64,000 nucleotides of DNA, taken from NCBI GenBank assembly GCA_944324285.1, contig CALUVR010000010.1, positions 1 through 64,000 of the forward strand, in the 5' to 3' direction. This DNA comes from Candidatus Gastranaerophilales bacterium (GTDB taxonomy: Bacteria > Cyanobacteriota > Vampirovibrionia > Gastranaerophilales > Gastranaerophilaceae). The position numbers were made by a program, and so were the translations under genes. Shown here piece after piece: positions 54,381 through 56,094 of this stretch; the stretch's first letter is position 1; each line of letters begins with the position of its first letter. Under the pieces are notes generated by a model that was not told where the DNA came from, searched no databases, and was given only the letters and a program-made list of their open reading frames with translations.

Positions 54381-54408
54381 TTGACTTTGAGAATTAATAT
54401 GCTAATAT
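54381..54408 (+). promoter_or_regulatory. Promoter of the attenuator leader
   Basis: TTGACT (54381-54386) and TAATAT (54403-54408), 16 nt apart. Transcription would begin about 20 nt before the leader peptide ATG. Confidence 0.6.
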
Positions 54409-54434
54409 AAATTACGCAAAGGAAACTGTAATTT

Positions 54435-54509
54435 ATGTCACACTTAAATTCAAATGCTCAATCTTGGTGGCGCCTGTCTGAAGAGACAGGGAATTTAAGC
54501 TGGCAATAA
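54435..54509 (+). CDS. Leader peptide with tandem Trp codons
   Basis: 24 residues, ATG at 54435 with AAGGA 10 nt upstream. The middle reads SWWRLSEET with two adjacent Trp codons, and a third Trp lies near the end (LSWQ). A hairpin CCTGTCT-GAAG-AGACAGG (54473-54490) begins right after the Trp codons, and a terminator follows at 54532-54569. This is the arrangement of a Trp-responsive leader peptide (trpL type) that times ribosome stalling. Confidence 0.6.
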   Translation: MSHLNSNAQSWWRLSEETGNLSWQ

Positions 54510-54569
54510 TATCTGATATTGTTCTTAAATAAAAAATGACCTGTACTCTTTATGTGCAGGTCATTTTTT
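54473..54569 (+). promoter_or_regulatory. Trp-type transcription attenuator
   Basis: Hairpin 1:2 is CCTGTCT/AGACAGG (54473-54490). The 3' arm ACAGG can instead pair with CCTGT in the 5' arm of the terminator (54540-54544), giving an antiterminator 2:3. The terminator 3:4 is AAAAATGACCTG paired with CAGGTCATTTTT (54532-54569). Together with the leader peptide this is a complete classical attenuator. The gene after it (54616-55785) is a tagged membrane protein, not a trp biosynthesis gene. Confidence 0.6.
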
Positions 54570-54615
54570 GTGACTTCACCCCACGCCGCAGTCAGATATT
54601 ATGGAGAAATTACAG

Positions 54616-55785
54616 ATGAAAACAGATAAAATTACCTTTACAAATTCAAATATAGGATTAGGATTAAAAACTGCCGCAAAAATCGTAAGCATTCAAGAAG
54701 GCGGTGCAGGATTATCAAATATAAGATTTATTCAGGATACGGCAACAGGTTTAATTCCGAAAGCAGTCTTTGCAAGGAGTCTGGCTGATTTGAGCGAAAA
54801 TTCTTTTCTTGAACTTTCTGAATCAGTTCTTGTTTACTACTGTCCTGCACTGCTCGGAAAGATTTTCAAAAATATTTACGCAAAAAATATTTCGCCTGAT
54901 ATGAAAAATTTTATCACAACACCTGCAGCGGAACTTTTGAAAAAAGGCGGAAAATATAAACCGCTTATGCCAGTAAAAGCAGCAATCGCACTTGGAGCTT
55001 TTGCTATCCCTTTAATTGAATTTACGCTGAATTACATTAAAAATCTTATGACATTGAAGGTTTTCAAACAGGGGAACTTTGAAAATATCGCAAACCTTAA
55101 TAAAGATAAAAATATTGATAAAAATTTTAACTCAAAAGTAGAAAAAAGTGCGAAGAAAAATATCCTTTCAGCAGCAGGGATTTATGCAGGATGCCTAGGA
55201 CTAGGTGCACTTCTTGCCTCAAAAGGTAAAAATTCAAAAACTCTTCAAAATATCTCGGAAACAATCCTTGCTCCGGGGACAAAATTCTTTAAAAATAATA
55301 AGAAAAAAGCTGATTTTGTGAACAGATATTTCAGCATAGATTTTGCGGACAACAACGGTAAATTCGCCCTCAGCAAGGGGCAGTTGACGTCGTGCGTTCT
55401 GGTCGGCGGAGCAGGATATTTCGGAGCCTCAAAAGACAGAGGAAAACAAAATTTCTTAGAAACTCTTTTCCGCTTCCCGCTCGTCGGCTTTTACATAATC
55501 TGCGGCAACGAACTTCTTGAAAAAGGATTCCGCAAACTCTTATACAAAAAGAACAAATGCCGCGATTTAATCAACGAAAAATTAGAAGTTCCGCAATTAA
55601 AAGATTTGAAAAAAATCGCACTGAAAAAAGGCGGTAATTTCGATGAAGTTTACAAAAAATTACTAAAACAAAAATGTCTGATAGCAGGAATACCACTATT
55701 ATTCGGGATTGGTGTAATGGGATTTTTCATCGCTGGAACCTCAAACCTTTTCACCAAATATAGATACAATAGAGAAAAGCAATGA
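54616..55785 (+). CDS. Tagged membrane protein (TFTNSN motif)
   Basis: 389 residues from the ATG at 54616 (GGAGA 9-10 nt upstream; an earlier ATG at 54601 adds five residues). MKTDKITFTNSNIGLGLKTAA carries the F-x-N tag. Hydrophobic segments occur near PVKAAIALGAFAIPLIEFTL, ILSAAGIYAGCLGLGALLA, FALSKGQLTSCVLVGGAGYFGAS, FRFPLVGFYIICGNELL and CLIAGIPLLFGIGVMGFFIAGT. The loops are Lys-rich. No enzymatic motif or known family. It resembles the tagged membrane proteins at 7972 and 38903. It is the gene immediately downstream of the Trp-type attenuator. Confidence 0.7.
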   Translation: MKTDKITFTNSNIGLGLKTAAKIVSIQEGGAGLSNIRFIQDTATGLIPKAVFARSLADLSENSFLELSESVLVYYCPALLGKIFKNIYAKNISPDMKNFITTPAAELLKKGGKYKPLMPVKAAIALGAFAIPLIEFTLNYIKNLMTLKVFKQGNFENIANLNKDKNIDKNFNSKVEKSAKKNILSAAGIYAGCLGLGALLASKGKNSKTLQNISETILAPGTKFFKNNKKKADFVNRYFSIDFADNNGKFALSKGQLTSCVLVGGAGYFGASKDRGKQNFLETLFRFPLVGFYIICGNELLEKGFRKLLYKKNKCRDLINEKLEVPQLKDLKKIALKKGGNFDEVYKKLLKQKCLIAGIPLLFGIGVMGFFIAGTSNLFTKYRYNREKQ

Positions 55786-55809: not shown

Positions 55810-56094
55810 TTATTTACCCGACTTTTTAACCAGAGCACTCACACCGGCATAAGTTCCGGCACCGAGCGCAAGAATTGCATTAATCGCAAAAGAATTTTTG
55901 GTAGGAGATGATGAGAATTTTACCTTTCTGGAAAGGTAATCAAGTCCTACCCCGAACCCGAACCAGCCGCCGGCTGTTGTTAAGCCGGATTTGACAGGGT
56001 TAGGATGAGTAACCGCAGCACCTTTTGGCGCGCTGTTTTTCGCAGCACAAAAAGTCTGAGGGGTATTAAAGCTATTTATATTGGAAATTCTCAT
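55810..56094 (-). CDS. Small tagged membrane protein (TFCAAK motif)
   Basis: 94 residues. MRISNINSFNTPQTFCAAKNSAPKG begins with the tag, followed by Gly-rich hydrophobic segments (SGLTTAGGWFGFGVGLDYLS, FAINAILALGAGTYAGVSALV). Such Gly/Ala-rich helices resemble those of the larger tagged membrane proteins. On the minus strand a perfect TTGACA (56129-56124), 17 nt, ATAATA (56106-56101) ends 6 nt before the ATG with no Shine-Dalgarno, so the mRNA is probably leaderless. Function unknown. Confidence 0.7.
   Translation of the reverse strand: MRISNINSFNTPQTFCAAKNSAPKGAAVTHPNPVKSGLTTAGGWFGFGVGLDYLSRKVKFSSSPTKNSFAINAILALGAGTYAGVSALVKKSGK

Follow-up and report, generated by a model that had tools for sequence, protein, structure and literature searches.

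A ribosome-mediated tryptophan (Trp) attenuator very probably (about 0.88) regulates a Trp-free membrane protein encoded by a stand-alone gene in Candidatus Scatousia, a member of the Gastranaerophilales (gut Melainabacteria) related to Candidatus Scatousia excrementipullorum. The DNA analyzed, here called the window, is a stretch of 64,000 nucleotides, and all of the attenuator features lie on its + strand. An earlier note on this DNA had described a complete Trp-type attenuator ahead of a non-trp gene, and the anatomy of the leader together with its conservation in 109 of 111 relatives bears out that description. These results identify the window attenuator as real, complete and highly conserved.

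The earlier note had read a promoter, a 24-codon leader with two adjacent Trp codons plus one more, hairpins and a terminator from the sequence, and every one of these elements is in place. Promoter-like hexamers TTGACT (-35, 54381-54386) and TAATAT (-10, 54403-54408) are separated by a 16-nt spacer and are followed by the Shine-Dalgarno region of the leader ORF, AAAGGAAAC (54418-54426), with AAGGAAA at about 54419-54425. The ORF starts with ATG, has 24 codons and reads MSHLNSNAQSWWRLSEETGNLSWQ followed by a stop (54435-54509). Codons 11 and 12 are a tandem Trp pair (54465-54470, as 54465-54467 and 54468-54470), and a third Trp codon occupies 54501-54503. Region 1 (CCTGTCT, 54473-54479) starts 2 nt past the second Trp codon and would lie beneath a ribosome stalled on the clustered Trp codons. 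Region 2 (AGACAGG, 54484-54490) pairs either with region 1 to form hairpin 1:2 (54473-54490) or with region 3 (CCTGTACTCTT, 54540-54550), which is both the core of the terminator 5' arm and the 3' arm of the antiterminator. The mutually exclusive pairing that had been ascribed to an ACAGG/CCTGT overlap is thus present, but the 2:3 helix is larger than that overlap: AAGAG-ACAGG (54481-54490) pairs with CCTGT-a-CTCTT (54540-54550) through 10 bp and a single bulged A. The intrinsic terminator hairpin 3:4 (54531-54569) carries a T-run (54564-54569), which places a U-tract terminator before the gene in the window; two distant clades lack this arrangement. Two longer helices frame these elements. 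Helix P1 (54436-54505) pairs TGTCA plus CTTAAATTC with GAATTTAAG plus TGGCA, holds hairpin 1:2 inside it, and uses the start-codon region of the leader ORF as its TGTCA arm. Helix P5 (54506-54602) pairs ATAATATCTGA (54506-54516) with TCAGATATTAT (54592-54602). The controlled gene follows with a Shine-Dalgarno GGAG (54603-54606) and encodes a Trp-free protein of 389 residues, designated family A (54616-55785); ATG 54616 was taken as its start, and the alternative ATG 54601 is not conserved in relatives. Folding the leader, a check that the note had proposed, gave -49.7 kcal/mol compared to -29.4 kcal/mol in shuffled sequences, and none of 200 dinucleotide shuffles matched the leader fold (z = -5.8).

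The canonical logic of ribosome-mediated attenuation can be applied to these elements. With charged tRNA-Trp, the ribosome would pass the Trp pair and reach the leader stop, hairpin 1:2 would re-form behind it, and the 3:4 terminator would then stop transcription at about 54569. With uncharged tRNA-Trp, the ribosome would stall at codons 11-12 and mask region 1, region 2 would pair with region 3, and RNA polymerase would enter the gene. A leader RNA left untranslated would fold into P1, 1:2 and 3:4, which corresponds to the off state. We infer the response to Trp and the direction of the switch from this architecture. The third Trp codon, which the note had counted with the other two, does not fit a sensor role. 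The tandem pair stands as the sensor, whereas the third codon sits 3' of region 2 in the window leader, where a halted ribosome would mask region 2 and favor termination. In long leaders its TGG is taken up in helix P1, opposite the 5' part of the ORF. For these two reasons the third codon is probably structural rather than a sensor.

The distribution of the leader was surveyed among the relatives of the downstream gene; profile searches with the protein yielded many more genes than DNA or covariance searches. The survey set consists of 111 non-redundant family A genes. A leader with tandem Trp codons (WW leader) precedes 109 of them and a single-Trp leader precedes the other two (L119 and L120); none of 31 genes of the paralogous family B has a WW leader. 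The expectation for a WW leader in shuffled upstream sequence is 0.8%, which excludes a chance origin. The two Trp residues are the sole fully invariant residues among the 109 WW leader peptides, which are otherwise variable and range from about 12 to 29 codons. The attenuator spans dozens of genera, with the same gene family downstream at 111/111 loci, and the named relatives are mostly Candidatus Gastranaerophilales, that is, gut Melainabacteria. At E ≤ 0.001 the DNA search gave leader matches in 12 of 59 genomes, the window genome counted; one of them, locus L012, was a spurious terminator match. A covariance model matched 43 of 146 family genomes, a count that includes a few false hits and was kept down by strict filters. 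Its matches at L038 and L039 were false, and the second matches in two genomes (L157 in G150 and L158 in G003) were ordinary intergenic terminators. In the window genome, the covariance model and a pattern search for other Trp leaders found one single such leader. The window leader matched no Rfam model, Trp_leader (RF00513) included, at the gathering score; the sub-threshold lines were a Thr_leader on the wrong strand and a trpB motif at 24 versus 59 bits, far below the cut-off.

Comparison of the relatives shows that the Trp codons and the hairpins persist in sibling genomes, as the earlier note had asked, and that pairing is maintained by compensatory change. Segments 1, 2, 3 and 4 change jointly, up to full replacement, and the 1:2, 2:3 and 3:4 pairings are kept. 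Full segment swaps occur in genus g24 (GGGTTAGT / AACTACCC / GGGTAGTT) and at locus L029 (GCTTGCA / TGCAAGC / GCTTGCACA). The antiterminator 2:3 has an energy of -13.4 kcal/mol with its own segments compared to -6.3 kcal/mol with shuffled ones, and the native pairing is among the best 5% in 102 of 111 loci. In long leaders built on the CCTGT/ACAGG core, pairing extends 4.4 bp past the 5-bp core versus 2.1 bp when permuted (p = 5e-5). Helix P1, which shuts the leader ORF on itself with the third Trp codon included, has -12.6 kcal/mol in long leaders with its own arms versus -9.2 kcal/mol with swapped arms. The corresponding values for helix P5 at 48 long-leader loci are -12.8 and -7.7 kcal/mol; the helix is present at most of these loci and shows strong covariation. 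P5 connects the region around the leader stop codon with sequence immediately 5' of the gene Shine-Dalgarno sequence and encloses the terminator. It crosses 2:3 and is predicted to form only once RNA polymerase has read through; it may serve in translational coupling or in protection.

The leaders fall into two layouts. Long leaders, mostly 24-27 codons and including that of the window, have their stop codon 3' of region 2, and short leaders end in WWRL with the stop codon within the 1:2 loop. In many short-leader relatives TTGAC lies exactly at -35 from the leader ATG and the -10 hexamer ends 6 nt before that ATG. A Shine-Dalgarno sequence was not recognized in 52 leaders; in 32 of these a -10-like hexamer directly precedes the ATG, mostly together with TTGAC at -35. 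Leaders of this appearance include L036, L040, L075, L079, L082, L223 and others, and their promoter spacing suggests that such short leaders are probably leaderless. The 3:4 hairpin has no T-run in two clades, in which the regulated step may differ. In one genus, g6 (L082, L084, L088 and L218), the T-run is absent and the 3' arm of 3:4 lies directly before the gene Shine-Dalgarno sequence, an arrangement that suggests a switch from transcriptional to translational attenuation with the gene start occluded. A palindrome, TTGTATCGATATATCGATACAA or a close version of it, occupies the promoter position at the checked loci of one clade (L096, L098, L099, L103, L106, L112, L114, L116 and L118); it is operator-like, and these leaders are without a T-run terminator.

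The window family A protein is helical with several hydrophobic segments and is taken to be a membrane protein on this basis. It has no relative in Pfam, NCBIfam, PHROGs or PADLOC, and none in the PDB by sequence. Its AlphaFold model is confident (pLDDT 93, pTM 0.88) and matches no PDB or viral fold at E ≤ 0.001. The protein does not match the models for the Trp transporter families TrpP (PF17099), Trp_Tyr_perm (PF03222) or SNF (PF00209). There is no conserved neighbor of the gene among 80 loci plus the window. A phage origin was looked for and rejected, with no match to family A in phages or viral contigs.

Trp content distinguishes family A from its paralogues. Family A contains 6 Trp in 44,538 residues, with none at all in 105 of 111 proteins, compared to 89 Trp in 13,384 residues (0.67%) in the unattenuated family B. 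As background, Trp makes up 0.71% of residues in the genome of a sister species and 0.96% in membrane proteins. Single Trp-free proteins are not rare (9 of 54 proteins of 350-450 residues in the sister species), and the case for depletion therefore draws on family A in its entirety and on the comparison with its paralogues. One site that is Trp in 31/31 family B proteins is Leu in 103/110 family A proteins, and another that is Trp in 30/31 is Phe in 102/110. The exceptions in family A are five deep-branching members that retain the ancestral Trp at one of these sites and one member that gained a Trp. Each family forms one clade with support of 100 in the tree, and the Trp depletion of family A is phylogenetically one origin followed by long maintenance. 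Both families occur in some genomes (e.g. G150, G013 and G069), and many genomes, the window's included, have A without B. Family B proteins (e.g. L126-L156) are about 430-470 residues long, contain Trp and have no WW leader, and many carry an N-terminal extension with an F-K-[GSA]-like tag. A short ORF on the - strand of the window (55810-56094, MRISNINSFNTPQTFCAAKNSAPKG...) carries an N-terminal motif of a type that also opens several other proteins of these genomes.

The depletion matches the low cognate amino acid bias described for proteins that are needed in scarcity and avoid the scarce amino acid, of which TrpA is the classic case (PMC4209129). Family A differs from that precedent in being a non-biosynthetic membrane protein of a probable auxotroph, in the near-absolute loss of Trp, and in having an unregulated, Trp-containing paralogue as a control. 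Induction by Trp shortage is suggested by the leader, and a protein without Trp could be made during the starvation that would induce it. In Chlamydia, also host-associated, the Trp content of Up-Trp and Down-Trp proteins is likewise tuned to Trp supply, but TyrP, its Trp transporter, is rich in Trp, the opposite of family A (PMC3937554). The note's proposal that Trp controls this gene is strongly supported by the persistence of the attenuator in dozens of genera and by a protein almost devoid of Trp.

The host family is probably auxotrophic for Trp, judging from its gene content. Both trpA and trpC are missing from all same-family genomes tested, where the single trpA signal (G032) is a partial match below the cut-off, and both genes were found in sister families f2, f3 and f4 and in one f7 genome. 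Several amino acid pathways are reported as lost from gut Melainabacteria, that for Trp not among them (PMC3787301), and the assignment of Trp auxotrophy therefore rests on the trpA and trpC searches. Among known transporters, PF17099 was absent from the searched genomes, PF03222 gave nothing above the cut-off, and PF00209 was present in 6 of 39 genomes, the window's not among them. Families A and B were not found in the searched f2-f5 and f8 genomes. In some host-family genomes no family A gene was detected, which means that a Trp auxotroph can do without it. One Gastranaerophilales genome (G046) has trp genes, yet has a family A gene too. Its trp genes form an intact trpE-G-D-C-F-B-A cluster (L261, reverse strand) whose enzymes are low in Trp, with 0 or 1 Trp each.

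The mechanism class is already known; the target, the lineage, the leaderless variant and the Trp-free cargo are new. The system here resembles the trp attenuator of Escherichia coli and its relatives in its short leader ORF, in the side-by-side Trp codons, in having four segments with 1:2, 2:3 and 3:4 pairings, and in a U-tract terminator; the short-leader class also shares with E. coli the stop codon in the 1:2 loop. Unlike in E. coli, the target is a membrane protein of no known family rather than trp genes, leaders of the window class have their stop 3' of region 2 and the additional helices P1 and P5, and the short class looks leaderless. Trp attenuators of Actinobacteria have similar tandem UGG leaders and alternative hairpins and precede trp operons and non-operon trpS (PMC1262725). 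Their targets are Trp biosynthesis and Trp-tRNA synthetase, in contrast to the function-unassigned protein of an unrelated phylum controlled here.

Several other readings account for parts of these data. The earlier note had offered, as its second choice, that the attenuator was a relic of a rearranged trp operon. A textbook Trp attenuator in a family that has lost trp genes is what such a remnant would look like, but the downstream gene family is always the same, at 111 loci in many genera with varying neighbors and compensatory change throughout, and this excludes it. The trp genes that the note had suggested looking for beside the same attenuator in relatives are not there, trpA and trpC are absent, and in the one relative with an intact trp operon examined (G046) no tandem-Trp leader precedes that operon, so the G046 attenuator does not serve trp genes. 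Hardly more credible is an ordinary terminator of the upstream gene next to a chance short ORF. The A/U-flanked 3:4 hairpin could end upstream transcription as well, but the ORF, the Trp pair and the 1:2/2:3/3:4 logic are conserved beside differing upstream genes, and the fold z-score of -5.8 also speaks against it. It is very improbable that the leader RNA or peptide, once released, has its main action in trans with attenuation secondary, as is reported for the peptide peTrpL of Sinorhizobium (PMC7298713): apart from W-W the peptide varies in sequence and length, and all of the conserved features are accounted for in cis.

A leader that senses slowed translation broadly, for example by ribosome antibiotics, would make the gene a drug-response membrane protein, as in bmrB-bmrCD of Bacillus subtilis, where a membrane protein gene is likewise under ribosome-mediated attenuation (PMC4191407). 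Such attenuators precede membrane transporters, and readthrough is expected from any stall over region 1. The bmrB leader has 53 codons, senses antibiotics and controls an ABC transporter; here invariance in the leader is confined to the tandem Trp codons, the downstream protein has no ABC or resistance homology and no drug-transporter or resistance gene follows, and the Trp-specific purging of the protein and of its conserved sites would be left unexplained. This reading is improbable. The remaining alternative accepts Trp attenuation and makes the protein a Trp-sparing stand-in for family B with no relation to Trp uptake. The sister relationship and co-occurrence of the two families and the absence from A of Trp residues conserved in B favor it, but A is the only one of the two in many genomes, the window's among them, and thus is not merely a back-up; we consider this reading unlikely, though not far-fetched.

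As the most likely job of the protein we tentatively favor obtaining Trp or a source of it; a Trp-sparing stand-in or another starvation function is otherwise expected. Acquisition of Trp, indole or peptides is compatible with both the auxotrophy and the regulation, and the Trp-linked transport or sensing role suggested in the note may apply. A tentative picture is that a family with a fold not in the PDB imports or scavenges Trp in auxotrophic gut Melainabacteria and is switched on by shortage of charged Trp-tRNA. Its Trp, including that at paralogue-conserved sites, may have been purged so that a starving cell can build the protein.

These findings attach a testable physiological condition, Trp starvation, to a family of hypothetical proteins from uncultured gut bacteria. 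They place classical Trp attenuation in the Melainabacteria/Vampirovibrionia at a gene that stands alone and is not a trp gene, and they tie a regulatory RNA to amino acid sparing in its own target with an internal paralogue control. The leaders also form a natural attenuator series in which the segments are wholly rewritten and the logic is unchanged. Should this protein turn out to be the missing Trp importer, the way in which these bacteria subsist on gut Trp would be accounted for.
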